From Candidatus Ozemibacteraceae bacterium (GTDB lineage: Bacteria > Muiribacteriota > Ozemobacteria > Ozemobacterales > Ozemobacteraceae): a DNA stretch of 34,126 bases. The position numbers and the translations under genes are program-made. The stretch is from the NCBI GenBank assembly GCA_937998695.1, contig CALLCO010000190.1:1-34126 (forward strand), read 5' to 3'. Below, piece by piece: positions 4,745-27,839 of the stretch (position 1 is the stretch's first letter; every line of letters begins with the position of its first letter). The notes beneath the pieces are model-generated. The model had not been told where the DNA came from and did no database searches. It saw only the letters and a list, made by a program, of their open reading frames with translations.

Positions 4745-4864
4745 GAGCCTGTTGCATGAATTGGCTTGTTGTTCGTCGTGTCCATAACGCTCCTGATCTG
4801 ATCGGCATCTCCGAATGGACTGTACATGAAAATGGGCTGTTTTGGGCATTCGCGCAACAGGCTC
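4745..4864 (+). mobile_element. R element, copy 1 (MITE-like)
   Basis: A 120 bp element with near-perfect terminal inverted repeats: it begins GAGCCTGTTGCATGAAT and its end, read backwards, is GAGCCTGTTGCGCGAAT (15 of 17 match). The interior, including ATCTCCGAATGG and ACATGAAAATGGGCTGT, is shared with the copies at 5738, 6990, 9123 and 27720. No transposase is encoded. A target duplication is not evident at this copy. Confidence 0.85.
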
Positions 4865-5182
4865 GTAAATCGGGAAAACTCTATTTTGCCAGCCGCTGCT
4901 TCCTTTGCCCAAGCCGATCTCCAAGGATTGCCGGCTCCCAAAAGCAGGTGGCAATCTGCGGTAATTGACCGAACTGTTCGCGCTGCATGCCCATCGCTCC
5001 CCCGGCCTGATTAGACAATTACCAACGCCCAGTCATCCCCCCACCTCGTAACCAAGAGATCAGGCACGGTACACTCCGATAGGTGCGCGCCTTCCTCTGG
5101 CAAAACAGATGCTGGCCCAAATGAAAATAACCTCAGAAGTGTCCCCAAAAAACGTCACCCCTGAGGCTATTTTCTTGGAAAA
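4865..5182. other. Intergenic region upstream of tmRNA 3' end
   Basis: No gene seen. Inverted CCTCAG (5131-5136) and CTGAGG (5161-5166), flanked by T-rich sequence on the minus strand, could be a second, weaker terminator for ssrA. Confidence 0.4.
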
Positions 5183-5197
5183 GCGCTCCCAGAGCGC
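5183..5197 (-). terminator. Rho-independent terminator of ssrA
   Basis: On the minus strand GCGCTC-TGG-GAGCGC forms a six-pair stem with a three-base loop, followed directly by TTTT. It lies five bases after the mature tmRNA 3' end. Confidence 0.65.
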
Positions 5198-5202
5198 ATC
5201 TA

Positions 5203-5562
5203 TGGAGGTGGCGGGAATCGAACCCGCGTCCGAAGAGGATCACAGACACCGTCTACCATCATGTCCTGCGTTTTTTTGGTTTAAGGCTTTCGTAACCCGC
5301 AGGCCGGTCTCTACTCACCCGAGCCGTCTGGAACGTCTCGATGCCGTGGGCCAGGGGCCCCCCACGTCACCCAGCCGGATTTGTCGTCGGTTCTTCGGGA
5401 GCCTACCGGCGTCGTCCCCCGGGAACCGTCGGGCCTAATTAGGCCGCGAGTGCCAGGTCTTCGTTGGCAGTTGTTTTTTTGATCGATTTTTTACGAGGCC
5501 CTTCGACCAACCTCGGATGGCAGGTGGCAGCTCACGCTCCCCGTCGAAACCAGGACACCCCC
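5203..5562 (-). ncRNA. ssrA: tmRNA
   Basis: A single-piece tmRNA of about 360 nt that rescues stalled ribosomes. The 5' end GGGGGTG pairs over seven bases with the 3' end CACCTCC, followed by discriminator A; CCA is not encoded. The hallmark TGGTTTCGACGGGGAG follows the 5' end, and the T arm GCGGGTTCGATTCCCGC precedes the 3' end. The tag reading frame ends in TAA and, taking GCC after CAACT as resume codon, encodes ANEDLALAA, so tagged proteins would end AANEDLALAA, a classical ClpXP/ClpAP degron. The resume codon is inferred by analogy with other bacteria; the LALAA ending is certain. R elements flank the gene on both sides. Confidence 0.95.
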
Positions 5563-5605
5563 GGGTAAAACGAAAACTACCGTCGGAACGACCTCCGACA
5601 CCAAT

Positions 5606-5634
5606 AATATAGGAACCCCAATCAAGCGCGTCAA
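5606..5634 (-). promoter_or_regulatory. Sigma70-type promoter of ssrA
   Basis: The minus strand shows TTGACG (5634-5629), a 17-base spacer and TATATT (5611-5606). Transcription would begin near 5599, giving a 5' leader of about 37 nt to be removed by RNase P before the mature end at 5562. Confidence 0.8.
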
Positions 5635-5674
5635 GGGACAATTTATGCCATCGAACGAAAAAACGCCCCGGGGA

Positions 5675-5692
5675 TATTATCTATAGATAGTA
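5675..5692. repeat. AT-rich palindrome upstream of ssrA
   Basis: TATTATCTA and TAGATAGTA abut as a near-perfect palindrome (8 of 9 pairs) in otherwise GC-rich DNA, about 40 bp upstream of the ssrA -35 box. Just beyond, GGGAT (5699-5703) and ATCCC (5710-5714) form a small hairpin followed by seven T on the plus strand (5720-5726), which could terminate rightward transcription. Either could be regulatory; no gene on the plus strand requires a terminator here. Confidence 0.4.
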
Positions 5693-5737
5693 TAGTGGGG
5701 GATAGACCAATCCCTGTCGTTTTTTTCTGCCATAATT

Positions 5738-5857
5738 GAGCCTGTTGCACGAATGGCCAAAACAGCCCATTTTCATGTACCGCCCATTCGGAGATGTCGA
5801 CCGGATCTGGGCTACTACGTACACTGCGAGCAAAAAACCGATTCATGCAACAGGCTC
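5738..5857 (-). mobile_element. R element, copy 2 (MITE-like)
   Basis: A 120 bp copy in the opposite orientation to copies 1, 3 and 4. Ends are GAGCCTGTTGCACGAAT and, complementary, ATTCATGCAACAGGCTC. The interior shares AAAACAGCCCATTTTCATGT and CCATTCGGAGATG with the others. It abuts a degraded reading frame to its right, so it may have inserted into a former gene. Confidence 0.85.
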
Positions 5858-6188
5858 GAATGGCCCGCAGGAAGGACCGATCGCGCTTCAGGTCGGCGAT
5901 CAGTCACTGATGCTCGGCGAGAAGTTCGTCAGGAGAACGAACATCCGGTGTCGGCGGGAATTCCTTGGGCTTTTTGGGCGCGGGACCTCTCCCAGCGGTT
6001 TGGGGGATGGAACGCGACAGTTTCCGAACGATCTCACACTCCTATAGTTCTACCATGAATCCGCCGGAAACGGAACCCACAGGTGGGGGGGCGGCGAGTG
6101 TATGAGGGATGGCGGCACTCGCCTGGATCGTTCCAGTGGTGGTTTTCGCAGAAAAGAAACAAAGAATTCAAGTTCGAATAAATTTCGC
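5858..6188. other. Gene remnant and lexA upstream region
   Basis: No intact gene. On the minus strand a frame from about 6040 reads EIVRKLSRSIPQTAGRGPAP and continues through a Pro/Lys-rich segment to LLAEHQ, stop, then LIADLKRDRSFLRAIR up to the edge of R copy 2. There is no start codon and there is an internal stop. It looks like a decayed gene, family unknown. Confidence 0.35.
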
Positions 6189-6217
6189 TTGATTTTCGTC
6201 TTTCATTCGCTTATATT
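6189..6217 (+). promoter_or_regulatory. lexA promoter
   Basis: TTGATT (6189-6194), a 17-base spacer and TATATT (6212-6217). Transcription should start near 6224, about 26 bases before the lexA ATG. Confidence 0.7.
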
Positions 6218-6226
6218 TGAATGGAA

Positions 6227-6239
6227 CGCACAACGTGCG
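6227..6239. promoter_or_regulatory. Candidate LexA operator
   Basis: A perfect inverted repeat, CGCAC-AAC-GTGCG, lies just downstream of the predicted lexA transcription start, a position where bound repressor would block transcription. It matches neither the E. coli (CTGT-N8-ACAG) nor the Bacillus (GAAC-N4-GTTC) LexA box. It is assigned by position and symmetry only. Confidence 0.4.
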
Positions 6240-6249
6240 GAGGTCTGAT

Positions 6250-6873
6250 ATGTCGCCTGATCCTTTGACGCCGAAGCAGAAAGCCGTGCTGACCTTCATT
6301 CGCTCTTTTTTTGCCCGGTGGGGGTATGCGCCCACCATTGCCGAGATCGGCGAGGGGTTGCACCTGTCATCGACGGCCACTGTCCACAAGCACCTGCAAG
6401 CCCTCGTCGACAAGGGTCACCTCGAGTCGCTGCCGCGTCGGTCGCGGGGGCTGGTGGTCAAGACCGAGCAGATTCCGGTCGGAGGTGGGGTCGAGGTGCC
6501 CCTGTTGGGCCGGGTGGCGGCCGGTCAGCCGATCGAGATCAGCGAGCTGCCCGAGACGATCTCCCTCCCCGAATGGATGATAGGACGGGGCGAAACCTTC
6601 GTACTGCAGGTGAAGGGCGAATCGATGATCGACGAAGCGATCAAAGACGGCGACCTGGTCATCGTCGAGAAGCGCGACACGGCCCGCAACGGCGAGATGG
6701 TGATCGCGTGTCTCGACGGCGAAGAGGTGACCCTCAAGCGGCTGTATCGCGAGGGCGACCGCGTGCGGTTGCAGCCGTCCAACCCGGTGATGCCGCCCAT
6801 CATCGTGGCTGATCGCGAGGTGACGATCAAGGGTGTGGTCATCGGCATCCTGCGCAAATATCGGCAGTTCTGA
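6250..6873 (+). CDS. lexA: SOS repressor LexA
   Basis: A 207-residue repressor of the DNA-damage response. The N-terminal winged helix-turn-helix spans about residues 7-70 (LTPKQKAVLTFI and ATVHKHLQALVDKGHL). The C-terminal S24-type autoprotease has the cleavage site A91-G92 in GRVAAGQP, nucleophile S125 in GESM and general base K163 in VTLKRL. All catalytic parts are intact, so RecA-stimulated self-cleavage is expected. The start at 6250 has GGAGG six bases upstream, so the extra residues possible from 6217 are unlikely. The gene lies between tmRNA and dinB, with R element copy 3 inserted after it. Confidence 0.95.
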   Translation: MSPDPLTPKQKAVLTFIRSFFARWGYAPTIAEIGEGLHLSSTATVHKHLQALVDKGHLESLPRRSRGLVVKTEQIPVGGGVEVPLLGRVAAGQPIEISELPETISLPEWMIGRGETFVLQVKGESMIDEAIKDGDLVIVEKRDTARNGEMVIACLDGEEVTLKRLYREGDRVRLQPSNPVMPPIIVADREVTIKGVVIGILRKYRQF

Positions 6874-6892
6874 ACCTGGACGACAGCCACCC

Positions 6893-6911
6893 CCGGGTCT
6901 GACTGACCCGG
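6893..6911 (+). terminator. Hairpin after lexA
   Basis: CCGGGTC-TGACT-GACCCGG forms a perfect seven-pair stem 20 bases after the lexA stop codon. There is no T run, so termination is possible but unproven. Confidence 0.4.
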
Positions 6912-6989
6912 TCGAACGAAGGGAGTGACCCTCGCGTGTCGCTCCCCAGAGGGGTACCGCCGCTCTGACGGTGATTTCAGAGAAGGAGA
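6912..6989. other. lexA to R-element spacer
   Basis: No feature seen. Together with R copy 3 and the dinB upstream repeats it fills the 440 bp lexA-dinB gap. Confidence 0.35.
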
Positions 6990-7108
6990 GAGCCTGTTGC
7001 ATGAATCGGTTTTTGCTCGTCGGGTACATAACGCCCCTGATTCGATCGGCGTCTCCGAATGGGCGGTACATGAAAATGGGCTGTGTTGTGTATTCGTGCA
7101 ATAGGCTC
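6990..7108 (+). mobile_element. R element, copy 3 (MITE-like)
   Basis: A 119 bp copy beginning GAGCCTGTTGCATGAATCGG and ending GTGCAATAGGCTC, orientation as copy 1. Flanking heptamers aggagag and cgaagag match at five of seven positions, which could be a decayed target duplication like the perfect one at copy 5. It separates lexA from dinB. Confidence 0.85.
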
Positions 7109-7133
7109 GAAGAGTCCATTGAATGAATCCGAC

Positions 7134-7145
7134 TTTTGGCCAAAA
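7134..7145. promoter_or_regulatory. Palindrome upstream of dinB
   Basis: TTTTGGCCAAAA is a perfect 12-base palindrome about 170 bp before dinB. It could be a regulator binding site; no protein can be assigned. Confidence 0.3.
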
Positions 7146-7201
7146 GAGACAATGTGACCCTGGTTTGACAAGGGGTTGCCGGGCAATCGCACCGGGCAGA
7201 G

Positions 7202-7237
7202 GCCGTATTTGGGTCTGCGACACCCAGAGGCCAAAAC
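7202..7237 (+). repeat. Direct repeat upstream of dinB, unit 1
   Basis: A 36 bp unit whose first 24 bases (GCCGTATTTGGG then TCTGCGACACCC) are identical to those at 7274; the last 12 are similar. The shared core has partial dyad symmetry (GGGT...ACCC). Confidence 0.75.
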
Positions 7238-7273
7238 GACGGCCGTGGCCCGGAGGTAGACCGCGACCTAGTC

Positions 7274-7309
7274 GCCGTATTTGGGTCTGCGACACCCTGG
7301 AGCAAAAAC
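7274..7309 (+). repeat. Direct repeat upstream of dinB, unit 2
   Basis: Second unit, 72 bp from the first. Its end carries the GGAG that serves as the dinB ribosome binding site, so this copy overlaps the translation signals. It may be a paired operator or a tandem duplication of the leader. Confidence 0.75.
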
Positions 7310-7313
7310 TGTC

Positions 7314-8492
7314 GTGGTGAAACGTATCGCCTGCCTCGATCTCGACGCCTTCTTTGTCGAGGTTGCTCTGAAAGACCGTCCCGACTTGCGCGGGAAGCCT
7401 GTCGCCGTGGGGGGCAGCGGCGGCAGGGGCGTCGTCTGTTCGGCTTCGTACGAGGCACGGCGGTTCGGGGTGCGCTCGGCCATGCCCACCTGGATGGCCC
7501 GCCAGAAATGTCCCCACCTGCACCTGCTGCCCGTGCCGCGCACGGTCGAAGCATTCTCGGCGCGGGTTCGCGAGCGGCTCGAACTGCTCTGCCCGGTCGT
7601 CGAGCAGGTCTCGGTCGATGAGTTCTACCTCGACTACACCGGGTGCGATCGGCTCTTCCCCGTCAATCTCGAGGTGGCCGACCGGCTGACGCGGGCCATC
7701 GCCGACGATCCGGGGCTGCCCACAACGATCGGGGTGGGTACCAACAAGCTGATATCGAAGGTTGCCTCCGACCTGGGCAAACCGCGCGGCGTGCTCGAGG
7801 TCTTCCCCGGGTCCGAGCGGGCCTTCCTGTCGCCGCTGCCCGTCAAGCACATTCCCGGGGTCGGCCCCCGTTTGCAAGAGACGCTGGCCGCTATGGGCGT
7901 GACCCGGGTTGGCGAGATCGTCCAGGTGCCGGTCGAAGCTTGGCAGGCGGCGTTCGGCCGCACCGGCGAGACCCTCTTCCTGCGCGCTCTCGGTGAATGC
8001 GGCACGCCGGTCGTGCCTCCGGCGCAGCGGGCGCACCGCAAGGGAGTTTCCCGCGAAACCACCCTCGGCCAAGACACCACCTCGCGCGACCTGCTGCGGG
8101 CCCTGCTGTCGAAGCTCACCGAAGACGCCGCCCTCGAACTGCGCACCGCAGGGCTGACCTGCGGCGGGATAGCGGTCAAGCTGCGCTATGCCGACTTCTC
8201 GACCTGCACGCGCGCGGCCCGGGTCACCCGCACCAACCACGACGGGCCGCTGTTCCGGGTGGCGGCGGGGTTGTTCGAACGCTTGTTCACCCGCCGGTTG
8301 AAGGTACGGCTGATCGGGGTGCGGCTCGACGACATCCAACCCGGGGCCCCCACCCCCGACCTCTGGGATACCCTCACCCCCGACGTGCGGCGACGGTTGC
8401 CCGCCGTCGTCGACGAGATCCGGGCCCGCTTCGGCTGGAAGGCCATCCTGCGCGCCCGTTCCCTGGCCCGCCCCGATGGCGCCTCCCCCTGA
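7314..8492 (+). CDS. dinB: DNA polymerase IV (Y family)
   Basis: A translesion polymerase of about 392 residues. Catalytic acidic residues are visible in LDLDAFF (D9) and SVDE (D102, E103). SYEARRFGVRSAMP is the typical fingers motif, and the helix-hairpin-helix-like KHIPGVGPRLQETLAAMGV and the little-finger domain follow. Start choice: GTG at 7314, 11 bases after GGAG; GTG at 7317 and TTG at 7281 are alternatives. The usual beta-clamp motif (QLxLF) before the last helix is replaced by PDLWDT, so clamp binding may be weak or altered. Location after lexA suggests SOS control, though no shared operator is evident. Confidence 0.92.
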   Translation: MVKRIACLDLDAFFVEVALKDRPDLRGKPVAVGGSGGRGVVCSASYEARRFGVRSAMPTWMARQKCPHLHLLPVPRTVEAFSARVRERLELLCPVVEQVSVDEFYLDYTGCDRLFPVNLEVADRLTRAIADDPGLPTTIGVGTNKLISKVASDLGKPRGVLEVFPGSERAFLSPLPVKHIPGVGPRLQETLAAMGVTRVGEIVQVPVEAWQAAFGRTGETLFLRALGECGTPVVPPAQRAHRKGVSRETTLGQDTTSRDLLRALLSKLTEDAALELRTAGLTCGGIAVKLRYADFSTCTRAARVTRTNHDGPLFRVAAGLFERLFTRRLKVRLIGVRLDDIQPGAPTPDLWDTLTPDVRRRLPAVVDEIRARFGWKAILRARSLARPDGASP

Positions 8493-8508
8493 GAAAAGTT
8501 ACCTCCCC

Positions 8509-9036
8509 ATGGCCGAACTGATGCACGACACCCCGACCGACACCACGTCTGAGTCCCCCATTTCATCATGGGCTTCCCCCCGAAGCCAGACACCACCCCT
8601 CAACGAGGGTCAGGGGGGGCGGATGGTCCCGCGTGGCGCGCACCAGCCTGGGGCGCGCGGGGCAGTTCTTTCCGGCTGGGGTCGGGGGGCGCGAGAAAGC
8701 ACCGATCCCGGTGCCCCTGACGCCCCGGCGTCCAAAACCCATGATCTCGCCGGCGATGGCGGGGTCAGACCAGGGAAGGCCAACACCCGCCTGGTTGACC
8801 TCATTTTTGAGGCAGTGGCCATGAAGCTTGAAGTGACGCGCTGCGAGTTGCGTGAGTGCGAGCGTGGACTGCAGCGCTTCGCCCTCGCCTACGGCTGCGG
8901 CATCGAAGACCTGCCTGTCCTCATGGCGAGGCCGGTGCCGCCGGTCTCACGCGAAGACGCCCTGGTCTGGTGCACCGAACTGCTGCGGCGCGGGCGCCTG
9001 CTCGATGACATTGCCCACCTCGCGGTGCTCGAATGA
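8509..9036 (+). CDS. Hypothetical protein downstream of dinB
   Basis: The frame is open from 8509 to 9036, but only the last 71 codons look convincing. The ATG at 8821 (MKLEVTRCELRECERGLQRF) has GAGG eight bases upstream, and the product is a compact, charged, probably helical domain ending LLDDIAHLAVLE. The upstream part is low-complexity, Pro/Gly/Arg-rich and has no ribosome binding site. In another frame an ORF from 8633 stops at 8824 with a TGA that overlaps the 8821 ATG (ATGA), which would suit translational coupling, but that ORF also lacks a recognisable domain. I do not recognise the protein; 8821 is the more probable start. Confidence 0.45.
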   Translation: MAELMHDTPTDTTSESPISSWASPRSQTPPLNEGQGGRMVPRGAHQPGARGAVLSGWGRGARESTDPGAPDAPASKTHDLAGDGGVRPGKANTRLVDLIFEAVAMKLEVTRCELRECERGLQRFALAYGCGIEDLPVLMARPVPPVSREDALVWCTELLRRGRLLDDIAHLAVLE

Positions 9037-9122
9037 GCCATACCAGGCCTTCTTCGTCCTCTGTCATTGTCGAAGCTGGGGGAGGTCCTGTCGCTGCCTG
9101 GCTCCCTTTGGGGGAGACACGT
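9037..9122. other. Spacer before R copy 4
   Basis: No feature seen. The whole interval 9037-9379 is gene-free and contains only R copy 4. Confidence 0.35.
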
Positions 9123-9240
9123 GCGCCTGCTCCATGAATCGGTTTTTGGGCTTGCGGTACACGATGTTCTTCTCTCATCACGGATGACTGGCAGACGGTA
9201 CAGAGAAAAAGGGCGTTTTTGGCGTTCGCGCAACAGACTC
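9123..9240 (+). mobile_element. R element, copy 4 (degenerate)
   Basis: A 118 bp decayed copy. It begins GCGCCTGCTCCATGAATCGG and ends TTCGCGCAACAGACTC; the middle has diverged strongly but keeps CGGTACA and the spacing of the ends. Orientation as copy 1. Confidence 0.65.
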
Positions 9241-9379
9241 ACATGGGAAAAACACAAAATCATCGGGAACGGAGGACTAATCCTCCGCTACGATCGACGT
9301 TGAAGACTTCCTGGCGTAGCCATCGGAAGGCAACAATGGGCCAGGGGTGGGCGAACCAAGGCAAAAAGGCGGTAGGGTC

Positions 9380-11893
9380 TCACCCCTCCGGAGGACGGAG
9401 CGCTCGCAGGCCGTTGGCGACCACTAGTACCGAGGCGCCGGTGTCGGCCAGTACCGCCAGCCAGAGAGTGGCATGGCCGGCCAACGAGAGGGCGAAGACG
9501 GCCAGTTTGAGTCCGATGGCCAGGGTGATATTCTGCCGGATGATAGTGCGGGTGCGGTGGGCGATGGCCAGCAGCAAAGGCAGGCGCCGCAGGTCGTCGT
9601 GCAGCAGCACCGCGCCGGCGGTGGCGAGGGCGGCATCGGTGCCCTTGGTGCCCATGGCGACCCCGACATCGGCCGCGGCGAGGGCGGGGGTGTCGTTGAT
9701 GCCGTCGCCCAGCATCAGGGTCGGGCCGTGGCGGGCGGCCAGGTCGGCGAGGCGCGCCCCCTTGGCTTCGGGGTCGAGCCGGCCGGTGCTTTCCCTCACC
9801 CCGACAGCGGCTCCGAATTCCCGGGCGGTTTCGCTGCGGTCTCCAGAGAGCAGTGCGGTGTGGGTGATGCCATGGTTGGCCAGGTCGGCCACGACCGCCG
9901 CTGCCTCCGGGCGCAGGCGGTCGCCGAGTGAGGCAATGGCCAGAGGCCCATCTTCGTCGTAGAGCACCGACACCGTCAGGCGGGCAGCCCCGGCCGGAGG
10001 AACCACCGGCGGCAAGTCGGGGCAGAGGGCGCCGGCCCATTCGGGAGCGCCGAAGCGATACGGGCGCCCGTTGATCCGGCCTTCGACGCCCTGGCCACGT
10101 ATCGCGGCGAACCCCTCGATGGCGGGAAGTGCCAGCCCCGCCTCGCTCGCCCGTCGGATGAAGACGCGGGCCAGGGGGTGTTCAGATCCGGCTTCCAGGG
10201 CAGCGATCAGGGCCAGGGCGGTTGGCCGGTCGACCCGCTCCGACAGCGGGACGAGGTCGAGCAGATCGGGTTCGCCGACGGTCAACGTGCCGGTCTTGTC
10301 GAAGGCGACCACCCGCACGCTGGCGGCGGTCTCGAGCACGTCGCCGCTGCGCACGAGAATGCCCCGGCGGGCGGCGGCGGCCATGGCGGCAACCAGCGTC
10401 ACTGGTGCGGCGAGCACCAGAGCGCACGGGCAGGCGATGACGAGCAGCACCAGCGCGGAATGGATCCAGGTGGAGAAGGGGCCAAGGCCGAACAGGGGCG
10501 GGATGACGGCGACCAGCAGGGCCAGTCCGATCACGACGGGGGTATACATGTCGGCGAACCGTTCAAGAGACGTCTGCAAACGGGACTTGGCGGCCTGGGC
10601 CTCCTGCACCGAAAGCATGATGCGCGAGAACCGCGACGCCTCGGCCAGCCGAGTCACCTCGACCAGCAGGGTGCCGTCGCCGTTGGTGGTGCCGGCGTAG
10701 ACCGGGTGGCCGGGTTCCTTGACGACGGGCAGGCTTTCCCCGGTCAGGGAACTCTCGTCGACAGGCGAGCTTCCTGCGGTCACGGTGCCGTCGAGGGGCA
10801 GCCGCTCGCCCGGCTTGATCCGGATACGGTCTCCCACCTGGATGCCTGCCGCCAGCACGTCCGCCTCGCGTCCGTCGGCCAGCACCAGGTGGGCTTGAGC
10901 CGGGATTTGTTGGCGCAGAGCCTCGATCGACGAACGGGCCTTCTCGCCGCTCACCTTTTCGAGCCACCTGGCGACGGCGAACAGGAACAGAACCATTGCC
11001 CCTTCGTTCCATTCGCGCAGGAAGACCGCCCCGATAGCGGCAGACAGCATCAGCACGTTCATGCCGACCCGGCGGCCCGCCAACTCGGCCCAGGCTTTCC
11101 CCAGCACGGGCCGGGCGGCCACGACCAGCGCAGCCAAGAGGAGGCCGGGCTGATCGAGAAGGCTGGCCAGCAGGATGAGGCCCCCCGAGATGACCATTGT
11201 CCACAGCTCCTGGGGCCACCAGGGGGTGGTGGCGGTCGGGGGCGGGGTGTCCAGGTCGTGGAGTTCAAGCCCGTGCTGGCGGCCCAGTTTGGCGACGGCA
11301 GCGCGGCATGAGGTGGCGGGGGTGCAGAGCACGCGCAGGATGCCGCCCATGAAATCGAGGTGGACGTCTTCGATGCCGTCCAAGGTGCGGATGGTGGTTT
11401 CGAACTCGCGGGCACATGAGGGGCAGTCGAGGCCGACTACCCGCCAGACATAGGTGTGGGTGGGTTCGGAACGGGCTGGACGTGGGGCGATGGGGGGGTT
11501 GCCAGTTGGTCGGGAACTATCGGTGGGAAGAGCGTCCTGGAAGGGCAAGGGGCCGTTCGCTGTCTGGCCGGTCAGCGGTGGTTTCGGTGGCAAGGCTTGG
11601 CCGGGGCATGCGTCTTCGGAAGCAGGAGAAGAGGAGGGACGCGAGTCGTGGGTGGCTGAAACCGCCGGCGCGGCAGAGGTCTCACTGGGGAGTGGTTCCG
11701 GGGCGGGGGGAACCTGGCAGCACCCGTCCAGAAGTTTGGGGCGGCGCAGGCCAAAGCCTCCAGAGGGTGGTCCGTCCTGGTTTTTGGGATGGTCCGTTGG
11801 CTCGCCGTGGGTGGTGAGATCTCGGCCTGGAGTAGGGTCGGCCTGCGAGGGGGGGGAGATGGATGCGGCGGAATGATCGTGATTAGCGCACAT
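9380..11893 (-). CDS. Heavy-metal P1B-type ATPase (ZntA/CadA-like)
   Basis: An 837-residue exporter predicted to pump Zn(II), Cd(II) or Pb(II) out of the cytoplasm. It begins with His-containing MCANHDHS, then a long Pro-rich linker (about 17-140), one HMA domain with the metal site GLDCPSCA (Cys near 156 and 159), transmembrane helices, the P1B motif CPC in IACPCALVLAAP (near 488), phosphorylation motif DKTGT (D near 532), an SEHPL motif, the hinge GDGIND (near 727), and a final helix with DTGASVLVVANGLRAL, typical of the Zn/Cd group. The ATG overlaps the end of the ArsR gene by 11 bases, so the two are co-translated. The long disordered linker ahead of the metal-binding domain is unusual. 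Confidence 0.93.
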   Translation of the reverse strand: MCANHDHSAASISPPSQADPTPGRDLTTHGEPTDHPKNQDGPPSGGFGLRRPKLLDGCCQVPPAPEPLPSETSAAPAVSATHDSRPSSSPASEDACPGQALPPKPPLTGQTANGPLPFQDALPTDSSRPTGNPPIAPRPARSEPTHTYVWRVVGLDCPSCAREFETTIRTLDGIEDVHLDFMGGILRVLCTPATSCRAAVAKLGRQHGLELHDLDTPPPTATTPWWPQELWTMVISGGLILLASLLDQPGLLLAALVVAARPVLGKAWAELAGRRVGMNVLMLSAAIGAVFLREWNEGAMVLFLFAVARWLEKVSGEKARSSIEALRQQIPAQAHLVLADGREADVLAAGIQVGDRIRIKPGERLPLDGTVTAGSSPVDESSLTGESLPVVKEPGHPVYAGTTNGDGTLLVEVTRLAEASRFSRIMLSVQEAQAAKSRLQTSLERFADMYTPVVIGLALLVAVIPPLFGLGPFSTWIHSALVLLVIACPCALVLAAPVTLVAAMAAAARRGILVRSGDVLETAASVRVVAFDKTGTLTVGEPDLLDLVPLSERVDRPTALALIAALEAGSEHPLARVFIRRASEAGLALPAIEGFAAIRGQGVEGRINGRPYRFGAPEWAGALCPDLPPVVPPAGAARLTVSVLYDEDGPLAIASLGDRLRPEAAAVVADLANHGITHTALLSGDRSETAREFGAAVGVRESTGRLDPEAKGARLADLAARHGPTLMLGDGINDTPALAAADVGVAMGTKGTDAALATAGAVLLHDDLRRLPLLLAIAHRTRTIIRQNITLAIGLKLAVFALSLAGHATLWLAVLADTGASVLVVANGLRALRPPEG

Positions 11894-12215
11894 GGCGGGG
11901 CTCTTCGACATGTTCCCAGGCGACCCGGACCAGACTGGCAACGTGCTCGTCGGCCAAGGCATAGAAAATGTGCTGGCCGGAGCGCCGCGCCTTGACGAGG
12001 TGGAGGCTGCGCAAAAGGCGGAGTTGGTGTGAGATGGCAGACTGACTGCCGCCGACGGTGGTGGCAAGATCGCCGACGCTGTATTCCCCGGAGAGAAGCG
12101 TGCACAAAAGGGACAGACGGGTCGGGTCTCCCATGGCCTTGAACAAGTCGGCCACTTCGGCCAGTCGGCTCGGATCACCTAACAGCGCGAGCGATGTGTC
12201 TGAAAAATCGCTCAT
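11883..12215 (-). CDS. ArsR/SmtB-family metal-sensing repressor
   Basis: A 110-residue winged helix repressor (DPTRLSLLCTLL, then SVGDLATTVGGSQSAISHQLRLLRSLHLVKARRSGQHIFYAL). The last helix has D-x-H-x10-H-x2-E (DEH...HVEE), the alpha5 zinc site of SmtB/CzrA-type sensors. The alpha3 cysteine pair of CadC-type sensors (ELCVCD) is replaced by EYSVGD, so Zn(II) rather than Cd/Pb is the likely inducer. It overlaps the ATPase gene downstream and should repress both. No ribosome binding site precedes the ATG. The promoter places transcription start at the ATG itself, so the message is probably leaderless. Confidence 0.9.
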   Translation of the reverse strand: MSDFSDTSLALLGDPSRLAEVADLFKAMGDPTRLSLLCTLLSGEYSVGDLATTVGGSQSAISHQLRLLRSLHLVKARRSGQHIFYALADEHVASLVRVAWEHVEEPRHVR

Positions 12216-12238
12216 ATATTCATATTATCGAATTTTCA
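12201..12238. promoter_or_regulatory. Candidate operator of the zinc operon
   Basis: TGAAAAATCG and CGAATTTTCA form an inverted repeat (9 of 10 pairs) around an AT-rich 18-base centre. It covers the -10 box and start codon of the ArsR gene, where repressor binding would block transcription. The spacing differs from the usual 12-2-12 ArsR/SmtB operator, so the exact site is uncertain. Confidence 0.45.
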
Positions 12239-12250
12239 TGTATCTGGCAA
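12222..12250 (-). promoter_or_regulatory. Promoter of the zinc operon
   Basis: On the minus strand: TTGCCA (12250-12245), 17-base spacer, TAATAT (12227-12222). Start of transcription, seven bases after the -10 box, falls on the A of the ATG at 12215. Confidence 0.65.
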
Positions 12251-12579
12251 GGGTAATGGGCACCGTGGTATGCTGGATGTGGCAACAGGCTCGAAGAAAA
12301 AAATGCGAAATTTTGAGTGCCAATGTTGATCCCGTGGTGGTATGGGAGTACAAGTCACAAGGCATGAATTATGGGCCTAAACGCAGCTTCTCATGGCTGT
12401 TCAGTTTTTGATAGAATGCGTCTGCGTGATAAGGGATCGACCCCTTCCATGTGGTTTGTGAGCTTCCAACCTCTTTCCAGGGACTGCGGGTGGCCACCGT
12501 ATGACTTCACCCGCCCCTTGACCAAGTCCCCCTTTGGAGATCTCAGACAGGGTCTGTTCGCTGTACCCACCTCCGACAA
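12251..12579. other. Intergenic region upstream of the zincin gene
   Basis: No gene recognised. It holds an 11-base match to an R-element end (GCAACAGGCTC, 12282-12292) without the rest of the element, possibly a leftover fragment. The sequence is AT-richer than neighbouring genes. Confidence 0.35.
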
Positions 12580-13140: not shown

Positions 13141-13143
13141 GCC

Positions 13144-13165
13144 CGCTGGGCAGGTGCGCCCAGCG
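13144..13165 (+). terminator. Hairpin after the zincin gene
   Basis: CGCTGGGC-AGGTGC-GCCCAGCG, a perfect eight-pair GC-rich stem, begins four bases after the stop codon. It has no T run. Confidence 0.5.
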
Positions 13166-20906: not shown

Positions 20907-21012
20907 GGTTCGCCTCCCGGGTGGGTTTATCCCATTCTACCAGGGCCACCATCCTTCCGCACATGATCCATCCATCCGGCAGGGCAAATGCCCATTTTTC
21001 TCGCTCTGAGCC
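20907..21012. other. Upstream region of the hydantoinase gene
   Basis: Contains GGGC-AAAT-GCCC followed by ATTTTTC on the plus strand (about 20983-20999), a small terminator-like hairpin with no plus-strand gene before it. Minus-strand TAGAAT near 20940 could be a -10 box for the hydantoinase gene. Nothing else seen in the 327 bp gap apart from the element at 21013. Confidence 0.35.
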
Positions 21013-21131
21013 GGCCGTTGGGCACTCTCGTGTCAGGCTGCTCCGTGCCCTCGGAGCGCCAGGCCATTCCTCGCGCTCGTGGGGTGCTCGTGGGCATTGC
21101 GGTCGCCTTTCTTCGAGAGTGCCCAAAGGCC
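21013..21131. repeat. 119 bp element with 18-bp terminal inverted repeats
   Basis: GGCCGTTGGGCACTCTCG at the left and CGAGAGTGCCCAAAGGCC at the right are complementary at 17 of 18 positions, enclosing 83 bases with an internal hairpin (GCTCCG-TGCCCT-CGGAGC). The length resembles the R elements but the sequence differs. No other copy is seen in this window, so it may be a second small mobile element or a structured leader. Confidence 0.6.
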
Positions 21132-21233
21132 TTCAGGGAAGGAAAAGGTTGGCGGTTGCCCTGGGGGCGATGGCTGGAAGACGGCTCCGGGGAAGGAAAA
21201 GGTGGTAAAATCCAGCCGGGAGAGAGAGCGACC

Positions 21234-21782
21234 ATGGGGTTCACCACATCGTTTGGGCCCAACGCCGCCGGGGGTGAGCGGCGGCCGTGTCCGTTCTGTG
21301 CCGAGTCGATCCTGGTTGGCGCGAAGAAATGCCGCTATTGCCAGAGCATGCTGGTCGACGGGCAGGGCCGACCCGTCGTCGTCGGCCCCGGAGGACAGGT
21401 TCCCCCCTCAGATGCCTCTCCGGGCGGGCCGGCACCGTCGTCGACGACGGGGGCTGACCAGGGCGGCCCTTCCTTGATGTCGGGCCTGCTGGCCAACCTG
21501 GTGTGCCCGGGGCTGGGCTCCTGGCGGATGGGCCACCGGATGCGCGGCATTCTCATCGGGGCCGGGATGATTCTGGCGGTCCTGTTGTATGCCCAGACCG
21601 CCGTCCCGATCTATCAGAAGATGCTCACCCAGGTGCTGCGCGGGCGGAAGGCCGTCCTGACGGCCGAGCAGCAGGCCGAGCTCGACGACATCATCTGGCA
21701 CAAGGTGGCCGTCGGCCTGTTCGTCTACTCCTTCGTCGACGTCTGGCTTCTCTATCGCCCGCCTCCCCGAAAGCCCTCCTGA
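21234..21782 (+). CDS. Zinc-ribbon membrane protein
   Basis: 182 residues: an N-terminal zinc ribbon with CPFC and CRYC (four Cys within about 18 residues), a Pro/Ser/Gly-rich linker, then two predicted membrane segments (GILIGAGMILAVLLYAQTAV and VAVGLFVYSFVDVWLLY). PGLGSWRMGHRMRG before the first segment resembles the Gly-rich entry of TM2-like or related small membrane domains. The role is unknown. The start at 21234 is chosen because GGGAGAGAG lies just upstream; the longer frame from 20988 runs through the inverted-repeat element and is unlikely to be translated. Confidence 0.75.
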   Translation: MGFTTSFGPNAAGGERRPCPFCAESILVGAKKCRYCQSMLVDGQGRPVVVGPGGQVPPSDASPGGPAPSSTTGADQGGPSLMSGLLANLVCPGLGSWRMGHRMRGILIGAGMILAVLLYAQTAVPIYQKMLTQVLRGRKAVLTAEQQAELDDIIWHKVAVGLFVYSFVDVWLLYRPPPRKPS

Positions 21783-21951
21783 ACCCTCCCCCGGCTTCCA
21801 GGCGGGCGGTCGAGGCACCTCGGGGAAACCCAGGAGGCGGTGCCTTGGCCAGGGACCCGGCTATGGGCCTCCAGACGGAAATGTAACGAAGGCCAGGGGG
21901 TTGGGCGTAACCCGGGTGAACGCAGCTCATGAATCGAAGGAGGCCATTCTG

Positions 21952-23379
21952 ATGAACAGCCGGTATGGAAGATTCGACGCGGTTCTCCTGGCGGTCCTGA
22001 TGGTGCTGGCGATCCTGGGGCAGGCTCCCGTGTGGGCCGAAGAAGACGTGTTGCCCAGCGACCAGGAAGTGGTGGGCGGGCCCGTGGTAAGCCAGCCCGC
22101 CTGCGGCTCCGACATGTCGGGCGGCGGCTCGAGCTGCGGCGGTTCGGTGGGTGGCGGCTCGAGTTGTGGTGACTCCAGTTGCGGCGGGGCCGTCTGCGGC
22201 GGCTCGAGCTGTGGTGGTTCCAGTTGCGGCGGCGGTTCTTGCGGCGGGGGCGGGTGCGGCATCACCAGCGAAGATCTCGACCGGTTCTTCACCAACCTGA
22301 CCGGGTTCATTCAGCGGGTCATCAACCTGGTACGGAACATCATCCAGGAGATCCGCAACATCTTCAGTGGAAATGGTGGTGGGTCTTCCAACAACGGTGG
22401 CGACGTGGTCAACGTGCCTCCTCCGGGCAACACCGGCGGCGGGACGACAACCGTGGCCAATCCGCCGACCGATTCCGGTTCCACCCCCGGCAGCACCACC
22501 CCCGGCAGCACCACCCCCGGCGGCGACCAGACCGTCCAGAATCCTCCGGGGCAACCCCCGGCCGACCCTCCCACCTCGGGCAATACCGCCGTGGGCCAGG
22601 TCGAGTTCATCAACTTCCCCGCCTCGAAAAACCTGAGCAACAGCACCTGGGGGCCCCTGCTGACCGACATCGAAAACCACCTGCCTTCCAGCTATGGCAC
22701 CCAGTATCGTGATCAGAGCCCCTCGACCCACGCGCACGAGACCACCCACGGCATCAACAGTCATATCCGCAACTACCTGAACAAGACCGGCCGCAAGGCC
22801 AACGGGTTCTACGTCGGCAACAACCGGGCCGTGGTGCTGATCGAGCCCAACCTGCGCAAGTCGGCGGCCGTGCCGTTCGTGCCCAACAGCCTGCGGGGCA
22901 GCCGGTTCAATCTCTACCTGCTGGGCATGGGTGCCTGGGACGACACCCCGCTCTACATCTTCGACGAGTGGGTCGCCTACACCAACGGGGCCCTGGTGGC
23001 GGTCGATCAGGCCAAGCGCGGCCTCTGGCGTCAGGGCTGGACCGACGGGGTCTACGGTGCGCTCGAGTTCACCGCCTACTCGTTTGCCCTGGCCATGGCC
23101 GTGGCCCAGCGCGATCCGCAGTATTTTGCGAAATATCCGCAGTTCAAGGCGTTCATGGCCTTCCAGGCCAAGCGGGCCATGGATGCCTTCCGGGCCGGCC
23201 GCAACCTGAAGGAGTTCAAGTACGACAAACAGGAAACCTTCTCCCGCAACCTGGTGAGTGGCTCCGACAGCGCCCCCATGCGCGACTTCATCAAGAAGAA
23301 CTGGGGCGAGGGGTTCTGGAACGAGGTCTTCCTCGGTCAGGCCCCGGCCGCCCAGGCCAGGGCTCCGCTCAAGAAATAG
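21952..23379 (+). CDS. Secreted zincin with Cys/Gly-rich tract
   Basis: 475 residues. Signal peptide (1-29, ending APVWA), acidic motif LPSDQEVVGGPVV (34-46), a Ser/Gly/Cys tract with nine Cys (51-102, SSCGGSSCGG-type units), a predicted amphipathic helix (about 106-139, EDLDRFFTNLTGFIQRVINL), a Thr/Pro/Gly linker, then a catalytic-looking domain with HETTH (262-266, preceded by another His at 260) and a possible third ligand in FDEWVAYTNG (E339). It is therefore probably a zinc peptidase acting outside the cytoplasm. AAGGAGG lies eight bases before ATG 21952, so the frame start at 21901 is rejected. The N-terminal layout resembles the M15 peptidase at 198-1343. Confidence 0.8.
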   Translation: MNSRYGRFDAVLLAVLMVLAILGQAPVWAEEDVLPSDQEVVGGPVVSQPACGSDMSGGGSSCGGSVGGGSSCGDSSCGGAVCGGSSCGGSSCGGGSCGGGGCGITSEDLDRFFTNLTGFIQRVINLVRNIIQEIRNIFSGNGGGSSNNGGDVVNVPPPGNTGGGTTTVANPPTDSGSTPGSTTPGSTTPGGDQTVQNPPGQPPADPPTSGNTAVGQVEFINFPASKNLSNSTWGPLLTDIENHLPSSYGTQYRDQSPSTHAHETTHGINSHIRNYLNKTGRKANGFYVGNNRAVVLIEPNLRKSAAVPFVPNSLRGSRFNLYLLGMGAWDDTPLYIFDEWVAYTNGALVAVDQAKRGLWRQGWTDGVYGALEFTAYSFALAMAVAQRDPQYFAKYPQFKAFMAFQAKRAMDAFRAGRNLKEFKYDKQETFSRNLVSGSDSAPMRDFIKKNWGEGFWNEVFLGQAPAAQARAPLKK

Positions 23380-23411
23380 CCCCGGTTTCGCCGGTCTGCC
23401 GTTCCCTTCGC

Positions 23412-23438
23412 GTCCCGCCCGGAACCTCCGGGCGGGAC
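23412..23438. terminator. Bidirectional hairpin between convergent genes
   Basis: GTCCCGCCCGG-AACCT-CCGGGCGGGAC is a perfect 11-pair stem between the convergent zincin and phosphatase genes. There is no long T run on either side. Confidence 0.6.
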
Positions 23439-23476
23439 TGCTGTCCTGGGGATGTTTCTTCCCCGGAGGAGAAGGC

Positions 23477-26062
23477 TCAGGCGGGCGGGGGGAGGAAATC
23501 GGGGCGGAAGCGCACGGCCAGCAGGGTCTGATCGTCCGGAGGGGGGGTTCCCGCTCGGAAGCGGTCCAGTTCCCCAATCAACGAGGAAAGGGGGAACCCG
23601 CCACCGGTGCGGAGTAGGGTCAGCAACCGGTCCAGGCCAAACATCTCGCCGGCGGGGTTCCGGAGGTCGGTTACCCCGTCAGTGTAGAACAGGAGGCGAT
23701 CTCCCGGCCGGAACGGGATGCGTCGTTCGGAGTAGGTGTGGGGAACGAGGCCGACCGGCACCTCGGGGAAGGTCAGGACGTTGACCTGGCGGATGTTCCC
23801 CTGACCGATGATGGAGAGCACGGGGGTGTGGCCGGCGTTGCTCCAGGTAAAGGTTGCGCTGGCCGGGTCGAGCAGGCCGTAGACCACCGTGATGAAGCGG
23901 CCGTCCGGGATGAGGTCGAGCATGACCTCGTTGAGCCGGTTCATCAGCAGGTGGGGGGCGATGCCGGGAACGGGAAGGGTGCGCAAGGTGGCCCGCAGGA
24001 CCATGGTCAACAGGGCGGCGGACACGTTCTTGCCGCTGACGTCGGCGATCAGCACGCCCAGCCGACCATCCGGGAAGGGGAAGAACTCGTAGAAATCGCC
24101 GCCGACTTCGCTGGCCATGGAGATACGGGCCTCCAGGTCGTAGGCCGGATGGGCGGGCACCGAGGTGGGCAGGGCACTCTCCTGGATCTCCTTGGCGATG
24201 CGGAGCTGGAACGACATCTCCCGTTCCTTCAGCGAGATGACGAGAAGCTCGGCGATCTCCAGCATGGTGGCGAGGTTCTGGACGATGACCGAGAGGAAGA
24301 GATGGTCGGCCGCCCGCAGGATCCCTTGGGAGGGGGTCAGGACGATGTAGAGGAACCCGGCCATCGACCGCATGGGAAGCCGGTCGAGGAGAGGCGTGCG
24401 GATGGCGAGAAAGCCCAGGTCGAGCGTCCGCCCTGCCTGGAGAGGGGGAGGCAATTCGGGCCACCGGGTCAGGGGAAATGAGTCCAGGGAGCCCTGATCG
24501 TGGTCCTCGGCGATGATCGGAGACAGGGCCCGCTCCGGGGCCAGCCAGGTGGCGATGGCCACGTGGTCGGCGGCCGACAAGGGGTACAAGGGTGACCCCG
24601 GGGGTGGGGTGGTGGATCCGAAGGGGTCGCCCATGGGCTGGGCCCGTCCGTCCCCCATTTTGAAGAACCAGGCGAAGACGAGATCGGGAATCTGGGCTCC
24701 CACCAGATCGAGCAGGCGTTGAATCGGCTGGCGGAGAGAGCCGGTGGGATCGGCCCCCGGGTGACTGGGCATCTCGTAGAGCGACGAGAAAATCTGCCGG
24801 ATGCGGGCGATGGTCTGAAAATACCGATGTTGCAGACGGATATGCCGATTGACCTGGCTCACCATGTCGACGAAAGAATGGTCGAGATCCTCGAACTCAG
24901 CGACGATGCAGGGGGGGGCGGGGGGAAGGGGTTCCCCCGGTTTGACCTGGCGAAAACGGGTGCGCAGACGCTCGATGGGGTCGGCCAGCAGGGCCGGGAA
25001 CCAGGCCAGGCCGATGGTGGCCAGCACGAACGAACTGATCAGGAAGACGAACCTCCACCAGAATTTCTCGCGGACCTCGGTCAGGAGGCGGTCGGCGTCG
25101 GTGGTGATGGCTTCCCAGAGGTAGTCGGCCTCGGCCACGATGTGGTCGGCCCCGAGCGAACGGGTCGTCCGCAGGCCTTCGTGCAGTTGCAGCAGGCGTT
25201 CCTCGAGCCCCTGGCGGCCGAACCGCCGGCTCTCGACGAACTGGCGGTAGGTGGAGAACTCGGTCCGGAACCGCTCGATCTCCCGGGCCAGGGGGTGGAT
25301 CACGCCGGGGGTGGACAGGCCCAGAAACCCTGGCAGAAGGGCGGGAAGCAGGCCGGACAGGGCTCGCAGCCGGGCCTCGACGCGCGAGTCGAGCTCGGCG
25401 AGAAGGGAGCGGGACAAGCCCCCGGGCGGTGCTTCCCCCACCATCTGGGCATGCGAGGCGATGTTGGTCTCGACTTCGCGCAGAGTCTCCTGAATGATGC
25501 GCTGGACGGACACGACGGGGATCGGATCGAACCCCGAGGGCCCGCGATCGACCTCTCGGCGGGCGTTGGCGAGGATGGCGGACAGTGAGGCCAGGCGGAG
25601 CGAGAAGGCCTCCTTCCATTCGATGCGGGCCGCGCTTTCCGCCCGCATCATGTTCTGCCATTCCCGCATGCCGGTGTTGAATTCGGCGAACTGGGTGGTG
25701 TAGCTGGCGAGCAGGGATCTGATGATCATCCATTGTGGTTGTCGTGGATGGTCCTGCAGAGCCTCGTCGAGTTCGGCGGCGACGCTGGCGATCCGGTCGA
25801 GCGAGATCTGGGCCTGGACGGGATCGATCGGCAGGCCGCGCAGGAAGCTCTCGTTCCGCAAAGAACCCAGTTGGAACCAGGTGCTTACCAGCCGCTCGTA
25901 GAGACGGCCGAGCACCAGCTCCTGCCGCTGGTCGGTCTCGATGAACGTGGTGAAAGCCCGGAACGACCACAGGCTGAGCACGAGGAAAGAGACGATGAGA
26001 ACGAGGATCGAAGCGAGGAGGGCGGTCAGGATCTGCTTGAACGACTTGGGCCAGAACGCCAT
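23477..26062 (-). CDS. Membrane-bound PP2C (SpoIIE/RsbU-type) phosphatase
   Basis: An 861-residue sensor phosphatase. The first membrane helix is about 12-34, a mostly helical extracytoplasmic sensor region runs to about 335, the second membrane helix is about 336-358, followed by a HAMP-like linker, a GAF-like region and a C-terminal PPM-type phosphatase. Metal and catalytic motifs are intact: SEVGGDFYEFF, IADVSGKN, YTDGVTDL and PDDQT. Such enzymes usually dephosphorylate anti-sigma-factor antagonists (STAS proteins), but no STAS, anti-sigma or sigma gene lies in this window, so its partner is elsewhere. A purine-rich ribosome binding region (GGAGGAAGGGGG) precedes the ATG. It is divided from mltA upstream by an inverted-repeat element. 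Confidence 0.9.
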   Translation of the reverse strand: MAFWPKSFKQILTALLASILVLIVSFLVLSLWSFRAFTTFIETDQRQELVLGRLYERLVSTWFQLGSLRNESFLRGLPIDPVQAQISLDRIASVAAELDEALQDHPRQPQWMIIRSLLASYTTQFAEFNTGMREWQNMMRAESAARIEWKEAFSLRLASLSAILANARREVDRGPSGFDPIPVVSVQRIIQETLREVETNIASHAQMVGEAPPGGLSRSLLAELDSRVEARLRALSGLLPALLPGFLGLSTPGVIHPLAREIERFRTEFSTYRQFVESRRFGRQGLEERLLQLHEGLRTTRSLGADHIVAEADYLWEAITTDADRLLTEVREKFWWRFVFLISSFVLATIGLAWFPALLADPIERLRTRFRQVKPGEPLPPAPPCIVAEFEDLDHSFVDMVSQVNRHIRLQHRYFQTIARIRQIFSSLYEMPSHPGADPTGSLRQPIQRLLDLVGAQIPDLVFAWFFKMGDGRAQPMGDPFGSTTPPPGSPLYPLSAADHVAIATWLAPERALSPIIAEDHDQGSLDSFPLTRWPELPPPLQAGRTLDLGFLAIRTPLLDRLPMRSMAGFLYIVLTPSQGILRAADHLFLSVIVQNLATMLEIAELLVISLKEREMSFQLRIAKEIQESALPTSVPAHPAYDLEARISMASEVGGDFYEFFPFPDGRLGVLIADVSGKNVSAALLTMVLRATLRTLPVPGIAPHLLMNRLNEVMLDLIPDGRFITVVYGLLDPASATFTWSNAGHTPVLSIIGQGNIRQVNVLTFPEVPVGLVPHTYSERRIPFRPGDRLLFYTDGVTDLRNPAGEMFGLDRLLTLLRTGGGFPLSSLIGELDRFRAGTPPPDDQTLLAVRFRPDFLPPPA

Positions 26063-26125
26063 GGCCTGCCCCCTTCCTCCTCTCCCCGGGATAAGTCACC
26101 CATCCAGTCTACCGCTTCTCTCTCC

Positions 26126-26316
26126 CGTTCCACAAACCTCATTCTGTGTGAAAAGGATGTGTCCCGGCGGCGAAGGCCATCAGAACGAGCTTTGCCGCAT
26201 GCCTTCGATACTCGTTCTGCGTCGGTCAATGTCGCGCGGGTCCGCCAAAGGGCCTTCCCGAAATCGTTTTCGAAGGGGACACAAAGATTGTGAACAGAAA
26301 TTCGGTTTGTGGAACG
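26126..26316. repeat. 191 bp inverted-repeat element between mltA and the phosphatase
   Basis: CGTTCCACAAACC at the left end and GGTTTGTGGAACG at the right are perfectly complementary (13 bp). Complementarity continues inwards as TTCTGT, a ten-base unpaired stretch and TGTGTCCC (26158-26165 with 26276-26283), and a second nested pair CAGAACGAG / CTCGTTCTG (26181-26189, 26211-26219). It fills almost the entire 258 bp gap. It may be a MITE or a large structured RNA. Confidence 0.7.
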
Positions 26317-26320
26317 AGGG

Positions 26321-27526
26321 TCAGCGGGCGAGGACCAGCCAGACTCGGCCGTAGTGGTGCAGGTCGCCGGCCCGGTCGCCGGCGGCGGTGCCGAGACCGA
26401 AGAAGAGGTCGAGGTGGCCGGGGCCCTTGATGGCGCCGCCAATGTCGTGGGCGAACAGCAGGCGCCACTCGTGGCCGATCAGGCGGCCGTGGGTGTCAAG
26501 GACGGGCACCTCGGCCAGCATGATGGTGCCGGCCGGCATGATGGCCGGGTCGGCGGCCACCGAGGCGCCGGGGATCAGCGGAATGCCCGCCGCCCCCGTA
26601 GGGGTTTTCGTCATCTCCTTGAAGAAGACGTAGGACGGGTTCTGATCGAGCAGGGCCATGTCTTCGGGGTGGGCGCGCATCCAGTCGCGGATGGCGCGCA
26701 AGCTGATCTTGTCGGCGGGAATGCTGCCGCGCTCGACCAGCAGGCGGCCCAGGCTCTTGTAGGGATGACCGTTGCCGCTGTCGTAGGCCGCCCAGATCTC
26801 GCGACCGTCCTGGAAGCGCAAGCGGCCCGAGCCCTGCACCTGCAGGAAGTAGACGGCCAGCAGATCGTCCGACCAGGCCAGTTCGAGGCCGCGCCCCGCC
26901 AGCGCCCCCTTCTTGTCGATCTCCTCGCGGGTCGGCAGAGGTTTGGGCAGGCCCTTGGGGGCGCGATAGAGCGGGAAGCGGAACCGCTCGTCGGGCTGGG
27001 CGGCGACCTCGAGCCGCGGGATGAAGTAGCCCGTGAACTGGACGTTCCCCTTGCCGTCCTCGCCTTGGCTGCGATAGAGCTTGAAGGGGAAGCCCTTCCC
27101 CGGCTTGCCGGAGCGCAGCCAGGCGTCGACGGCGCGGGCCGTCCGTTCGAGGTCGGCCCCGGACACGGTCAGGTTGCCGACCTTGACGGTCTTCTGGGTG
27201 GCATAACGGCGGGCGACCGCGCGGTTGGCCCGGGCGGCGAAGCGGGCGGCGTCGCTGCGCGGCGGGGTGACCGTGGGCGGCTGGCGTTCCGCTTCCCAGG
27301 CCAGCTTCTGCGCGGGCCCAGGGCGCTTGCCGTCGCCGGCGAAGTCGTAGCCCCGCCCGGTCTGGGCCTGTAGAGCGGGGGTGAGGCAGAGCAGGGCCAT
27401 GATGACCCAACCCGCCCACCCGACCAACCCCGGTGCACGGGTGGAGAGGGAAAGCCGCGGGGTGGCCCGCCGGGGAGAGGGGTGGCCAGCGTTGGCGCGA
27501 GTGGATAGAGATCGGGTGATCGACAT
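26321..27526 (-). CDS. mltA: Lytic murein transglycosylase, MltA type
   Basis: A 401-residue enzyme that cleaves the MurNAc-GlcNAc bond of peptidoglycan. MltA-domain motifs are present: FTGYFIPRLEV, FLQVQGSGRLRFQDG and VFFKE. The 3D domain follows with FAHDIGGAIKGPGHLDLFFG, where the Asp in HLDLFF corresponds to the catalytic Asp of E. coli MltA. The N-terminus is a long, basic signal sequence with a hydrophobic core (WVIMALLCLTPALQA). There is no convincing lipobox, so unlike E. coli MltA it may be soluble in the periplasm or anchored. GGAGGG lies eight bases before the ATG. Its presence argues for a diderm host. Confidence 0.93.
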   Translation of the reverse strand: MSITRSLSTRANAGHPSPRRATPRLSLSTRAPGLVGWAGWVIMALLCLTPALQAQTGRGYDFAGDGKRPGPAQKLAWEAERQPPTVTPPRSDAARFAARANRAVARRYATQKTVKVGNLTVSGADLERTARAVDAWLRSGKPGKGFPFKLYRSQGEDGKGNVQFTGYFIPRLEVAAQPDERFRFPLYRAPKGLPKPLPTREEIDKKGALAGRGLELAWSDDLLAVYFLQVQGSGRLRFQDGREIWAAYDSGNGHPYKSLGRLLVERGSIPADKISLRAIRDWMRAHPEDMALLDQNPSYVFFKEMTKTPTGAAGIPLIPGASVAADPAIMPAGTIMLAEVPVLDTHGRLIGHEWRLLFAHDIGGAIKGPGHLDLFFGLGTAAGDRAGDLHHYGRVWLVLAR

Positions 27527-27719
27527 GGGGTTCGCCCTCCGGATTTGGATTGCCTGCGGGTGGATGACCCGCGTCAGTGTAGTGGAACCGGGCTGAGTTG
27601 ACTAGAGGGGAAAGAGGGGGGAAAGTGGGCATTCTAGCATGGGTACAGATGGCTTCTGACAAGAAACCTGAGTCGCTGCCAGCTCAGGAGCCGCATCACC
27701 TCGCATCTCGTGGCAAGAT
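27527..27719. other. Region upstream of mltA
   Basis: No gene seen. A minus-strand TACACT near 27575 could be a -10 box, without a good -35. It opens a 739 bp gene-poor interval (27527-28265). Confidence 0.3.
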
Positions 27720-27839
27720 GAGCCTGTTGCGCGAATGCCCAAAACAGCCCATTTTCAGGTACCGTCCATTCGGAGATGCCGATCTGATCAGGAGCATTAT
27801 GTACACGACGAATAAAAACCCGATTCATGCAGCAGGCCC
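27720..27839 (-). mobile_element. R element, copy 5, with target duplication
   Basis: A 118-120 bp copy, orientation as copy 2: GAGCCTGTTGCGCGAATGCC at the left, GATTCATGCAGCAGGCC at the right. It is flanked by perfect 7-base direct repeats CAAGATG (27714-27720 and 27839-27845), which overlap the outermost bases and make the element proper 27721-27838. This is the best evidence that the family moves by transposition and that this copy is recent. Confidence 0.88.

Follow-up and report, generated by a model that had tools for sequence, protein, structure and literature searches.

The window, a 34,126-nt stretch of DNA that is contig C190 of a draft genome (G000; 4.53 Mb, 324 contigs, 92% complete), carries five copies of a short repeat, here called R, and these are very probably MITEs mobilized by a transposase of the IS1182 family. 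R is short with inverted ends, occurs in many copies with a target duplication and shows evidence of movement. Its ends match those of an IS1182-family element and its usual duplication is 4 bp, while an intact partner was found in a genome of the same genus rather than in G000 itself. All of the evidence is computational.

Structure of R and its copies in the window

The R consensus is 120 bp long and runs from GAGCCTGTTGCATGAATCGG to CATTCGCGCAACAGGCTC. In fuller form, one end reads GAGCCTGTTGCATGAAT and the other, given as the reverse complement, either GAGCCTGTTGCGCGAAT or GAGCCTGTTGCACGAAC. Inverted ends of ~17 bp enclose a non-coding interior, for a total of ~120 bp without a transposase gene, and the older copies display a left-right difference between the ends (ATGAAT vs CACRAAC).

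An earlier note, made from the DNA letters of the window, had placed R elements at five positions, all of which were recovered when the coordinates were re-derived by matching to a model of the family (Table 1). Its description of inverted ends and a common interior lacking a transposase gene holds for the window copies, and the mobilizing transposase is, as it had stated, absent from the window. The 10-mer AGCCTGTTGC, which the same note had given as shared by the ends of all five copies, is exact at both ends in only two of them (4745 and 5738); it is altered at one end in the copies at 6990 and 27720, and at both ends in the copy at 9123.

Table 1. R elements, target duplication and neighboring genes in the window (neighboring gene names are Pfam-based)
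Feature	Position	Strand	Remarks
R element, 120 bp, near-consensus	4745..4864	+	105 bits; flanks TGAT / GTAA, no clear target duplication
tmRNA	5203-5562	-	
R element, 120 bp	5738..5857	-	tmRNA-lexA interval; no clear target duplication
lexA	6217-6873		
R element, 119 bp	6990..7108	+	Interval from lexA to DinB-like gene; no clear target duplication
DinB-like gene	7281-8492		
Small ORF	end at 9036		
R element, diverged	9123..9240	+	Between small ORF and P-type ATPase-like gene; 64 bits; no clear duplication
P-type ATPase-like gene	9380-12178	-	
Target duplication AAGAT, 5 bp, left copy	27715..27719		
R element, 120 bp	27720..27839	-	Sole clear target duplication of the window copies
Target duplication AAGAT, 5 bp, right copy	27840..27844		

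Copy number and distribution

With up to two mismatches allowed, the end pattern AGCCTGTTGCRYGAAT was found in G000 106 times in forward and 106 times in reverse orientation, compared with 0 and 1 places for a reversed-pattern control; the family is far larger than chance would give. When 27 copies were used to build a sequence-only model, it gave at least 128 matches in G000 at an E value of ≤0.001, a lower bound because scoring was limited to 150 of 1441 first-look candidates. The genome-wide search that the earlier note had proposed therefore returned many more copies, which together would account for as much as ~15 kb of the draft genome (128 matches of ≤~120 bp). Seven and eight matches, respectively, were obtained in G001 and G002, two genomes of the same genus, with the best 150 candidates scored (model scoring covered at most 150 of the 1352 to 1787 first-look candidates per genome).

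Among 56 relatives' genomes searched, R was present in three: G000, G001 and G002. A phylum-wide search, in which at most the best 93 candidates were scored per genome, gave matches in 5 of 39 genomes, namely the three of the genus together with single weak matches in G014 (E value, 2.7e-6) and G003 (E value, 3.8e-4). An exact R 25-mer identified one stretch in genome_contigs, in a Riflebacteria MAG identical to G002 over 320 bases, in a search that may have left out the window's own genome, and an R 20-mer gave no matches in viral contigs. No MITE of Riflebacteria was found in the literature among the matches listed.

A second R subfamily, of the CCGTTTTTCGG...TTCCGG type, was observed in G000 (C97:5294, C118:16521 and C177:6618) and in G001 (C26:17107 and C50:60057); because it occurs in two species, it either predates the species split or has moved between species. 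The copy at C80:155 is an ordinary diverged R element (full-model match, minus strand, 67.9 bits).

Target duplications and target preference

Duplications were counted in 106 near-full-length copies of the 128 G000 matches, the 22 partial ones being left out. Exact 4-bp target duplications flanked 35 of them, and 71 lacked one; other lengths were rare (5 bp, n = 2; 6 bp, n = 2; 7 bp, n = 1, the last at C35:3792). When the right flanks were shuffled (2000 shuffles), exact 4-mers averaged 1.01 with a maximum of 5. The share of copies with a 4-bp duplication, by score class from best to worst, was 14/28, 6/15, 9/32 and 6/31, and an earlier count on 61 copies picked by their ends had given 27. 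One R copy in G002 has GTGG on both flanks.

These counts revise the 7-bp target duplication that had been proposed from the copy at 27720. CAAGATG is indeed present on either side of that copy, but the duplication comprises AAGAT only. Aligned to the family, the element spans G27720 to C27839, and the longer match arises because its terminal G and C are equal by chance to the neighboring G and C. As we infer the strand chemistry of R insertion, an IS1182-family DDE transposase would act in trans on the R ends, and the element would be joined to target DNA whose strands had been cut four bases apart, giving rise to the 4-bp direct repeats.

A preference in the sequences around the target was also measured. 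Where a 4-bp duplication was present (35 copies), C at -1/-3 and G at +1/+3 occupied 83 of 140 places, compared with 41.7 expected from flank composition, although a p-value for this set is optimistic because the first 27 of these copies had served to choose the positions. Eight later-added copies, held out from that choice, had the preferred base at 19 of 32 places (p = 0.0005). Copies that lacked an exact 4-bp duplication (n = 71) were skewed in the same direction but more weakly (127/284; p ~8e-8). The central 4-mer was A or T at 95 of 140 places. Overall, R prefers a loosely palindromic target, CNC-NNNN-GNG, whose center is rich in A/T.

Genomic position of R

The longest stop-free stretch across reconstructed R sites reached a median length of 507 of the 696 nt possible, whereas random positions gave 693 nt (Mann-Whitney p ~1e-15; 85 of the 106 copies with enough flank vs 1721 random window positions). 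A second test of 53 copies against 398 same-loci controls gave 675 versus 1038, and 15% of R sites were open throughout. With the stop-free stretch serving as a proxy for gene calls, R sites fit an intergenic position, which agrees with the earlier description of R as lying between genes. This placement probably reflects selection against insertions into genes.

Sites that look intergenic would also be expected of a structured intergenic RNA or a REP/ERIC-like repeat that is retained because it serves the cell. Single strands of R fold better than shuffled sequences (z of -3.3 and -3.0), largely via the inverted ends, and both-side changes were seen in 2 of 20 consensus pairs. However, the covariation term of +0.28 across 16 diverse copies amounts to no net support, no Rfam family reached its gathering score on the window R copies, and the duplications, nesting and R-free intervals show that R is mobile. 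A structured RNA was rejected as the main explanation on these grounds and is extremely improbable. Single R copies may nevertheless have taken on a regulatory role later.

Evidence of movement

Seven pairs of identical R copies were found at different sites, the same seven whether 61 or 106 copies were compared, which suggests recent movement. One copy (C299:22566-22684) lies inside an older R element and is flanked by a GAAT duplication; when one GAAT is removed and the flanks are joined, an R-like order is restored. The R copy at C93:5469 is immediately preceded by 58 bp (at C93:5410) that resemble the left end of the IS described below (74% identity; E value, 0.003), and this copy may have inserted into an IS relic. 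Additionally, two R copies stand head to tail at locus L103 (G000:C117:6101-6344) with TATA between them, the first having TATA on both sides.

The earlier note had also proposed a comparison with orthologous sites lacking the element, and such R-free intervals exist in both relatives. Neither of the outcomes that the note had named as refuting it, a lack of further copies or relatives filled at all the same sites, was observed. G001 has the gene order of the window (tmRNA, lexA, dinB-like gene, small gene, P-type ATPase gene and ArsR-type regulator gene) in blocks of 75 to 91% DNA identity, and its syntenic 7-kb stretch contained no R match better than an E value of 0.18. The tmRNA-lexA, lexA-dinB and ORF-ATPase intervals are R-free in G001, as is the lexA-dinB interval of ~11 bases in G002. 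Between aligned blocks, the ORF-ATPase interval is 122 bp longer in the window than in G001, corresponding to approximately one R element and its duplication. The tmRNA-lexA and lexA-dinB intervals differ from those of G001 by about 364 and 381 bp, the latter being ~380 bp longer in the window; these differences imply other changes, so that no base-exact empty sites could be read.

An IS1182-family partner

A full-length IS of 1560 bp was identified at G001:C50 (L048:1205-2764), 27 bp from an R copy. Its left end reads GAGCCTGTTGCATGAAT and its right end, as the reverse complement, GAACCTGTTGCACAAAC; both ends thereby match those of R and reproduce the left-right difference of the older copies. 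The 456-amino-acid protein encoded by this IS exceeded the cut-off of NCBIfam transpos_IS1182 (288.3 vs 270 bits) and contains the Pfam domains DUF772, DDE_Tnp_1_6 and DDE_Tnp_1. The R ends, which had not been recognized as those of a described MITE, therefore match those of the IS1182 family, and the search for a full-length IS with matching ends suggested in the earlier note was successful in a genome of the same genus. The likeness between R and the IS is confined to the ends (left 17 bp exact; 32 bp at 84% identity with one copy; E value, 0.04). No target duplication was identified at the flanks of the G001:C50 element (CTGG vs ATTA).

Three IS1182 coding pieces in G002 (C57, C45 and C162) start ~85 to 125 bp inside GAGCCTGTTGCA ends, and those at C45 and C162 stop exactly at contig ends. 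In G000, an IS1182 profile search identified only two relics, C95:25913, which directly adjoins an R copy, and C244:15320, which has an internal stop. They share 87% and 82% DNA identity, respectively, with the G001 IS; the lineage therefore once held an IS of the G001 type. Because the G000 draft assembly yielded no intact IS1182 gene, the partner is deduced from the relatives and the relics. The absence itself is weak evidence, since drafts may lack multi-copy ISs, as the G002 pieces ending at contig ends illustrate. Judged from the ends, the duplication length, the relics and the element in the relative, the transposase of the matching-end IS probably moved the R elements.

If the match to IS1182 were convergent, a transposase of a different family with similar ends could have moved R instead. 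The lack of an intact IS1182 gene in the G000 assembly, the R interior unrelated to the IS and eight other DDE_Tnp_1 matches in G000 would suit such an origin. At those eight loci, each examined together with flanks of ~1 kb or more as far as the contig reached, three 11-bp end matches with two mismatches were the only ones found and none was paired; on this basis another IS family was rejected as the R partner. Set against it as well are the G001 IS, matching both R ends down to their left-right difference, the IS1182 relics beside R copies, and 4-bp duplications that fit published IS1182 cases. Convergence with a different family is thus quite improbable.

Mobilization by an IS1182 transposase is compatible with a further possibility, that R is a fossil family, once moved in this way and now immobile after loss of its partner. 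The assembly holds only IS relics, and many R copies are diverged and without duplications. The seven identical pairs, however, point to recent movement, and the missing IS may be a product of the draft state of the assembly. Present immobility is accordingly conceivable, albeit somewhat doubtful. A more far-reaching proposal is unlikely when taken as a whole: that R is a MITE family which expanded to well over 100 copies in one species versus seven or eight in its sister species, that its mobility persisted, with no intact IS1182 gene in the genome, through a transposase that is distant or was acquired transiently, and that it exposes a quantitative CNC-N4-GNG palindromic rule for an IS1182 group with a 4-bp stagger.

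Comparison with known elements

ERIC, Chunjie and BOX/RUP MITEs have partner ISs other than that of R, or unknown ones. R resembles them in being short, mostly intergenic and present at high copy number, with different ends; in a review of prokaryotic MITEs, ERIC is given 30 to 711 copies and BOX/RUP/SPRITE elements are described as inserting into one another (PMC10969869).

The closest counterparts are the ISMac2-related MITEs of Methanosarcina acetivorans, which also belong to the IS1182 family. In the section of that report covering them, they are listed at 160 and 169 bp, with 14 and 7 copies, and 4-bp repeats are given for the 160-bp set and none for the 169-bp set (PMC3852290). R is likewise non-autonomous with an IS1182-family partner and shares the 4-bp repeats with one of the two sets, but it is ~120 bp long with at least 128 matches, resides in a bacterial host and has ends of ~17 bp rather than 25 to 26 bp; unlike the case in that account, its intact partner was seen only in a relative (PMC3852290). 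ISPse1 of Paracoccus, as it appears in an excerpt of its description, is an IS1182-family element of 1653 bp with 4-bp repeats and 16-bp inverted ends (PMC3281130); it has the 4-bp repeats in common with R, but is a full IS with its own transposase.

IS1272 of Staphylococcus is placed in the IS1182 family and thus shares its transposase family with the probable partner of R. According to the available part of the IS1272 study, this element replaces an inverted repeat and produces no duplication, whereas R leaves 4-bp duplications at sites that are not replaced; palindrome targeting by some members of the IS1182 family is also mentioned there and attributed to others (PMC5678879). As far as these partial sources extend, IS1182-family MITEs with 4-bp repeats and palindrome targeting by some members were thus already known (PMC3852290, PMC5678879), and the CNC-N4-GNG rule was not found in the IS1182 literature compared (PMC5678879, in part). 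Less expected are the size of the expansion without an intact partner in the assembly and the measured CNC-N4-GNG preference.

Through this analysis an abundant repeat gains a likely mobilizer, and an IS family that has been little studied gains a duplication length and a target preference. A MITE family is also described in an uncultured phylum; no new kind of biology is introduced. Since several mechanical ORFs cross R repeats, annotation of R may help annotators.

Other features of the window

The tmRNA of the window (5203-5562, minus strand) encodes the tag peptide ANEDLALAA, and an identical tag occurs in G001. A second repeat of 154 nt is present at 3743-3896 and 29707-29860 (88% identity, same strand), with a further copy at G000:C39:2506-2658 (85%) and no match in G001 or G002. 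In the lexA-dinB interval, 36-nt direct repeats with GCCGTATTTGGGTCTGCGACACCC lie at 7202-7237 and 7274-7309; they are 89% alike and adjoin the R copy at 6990.
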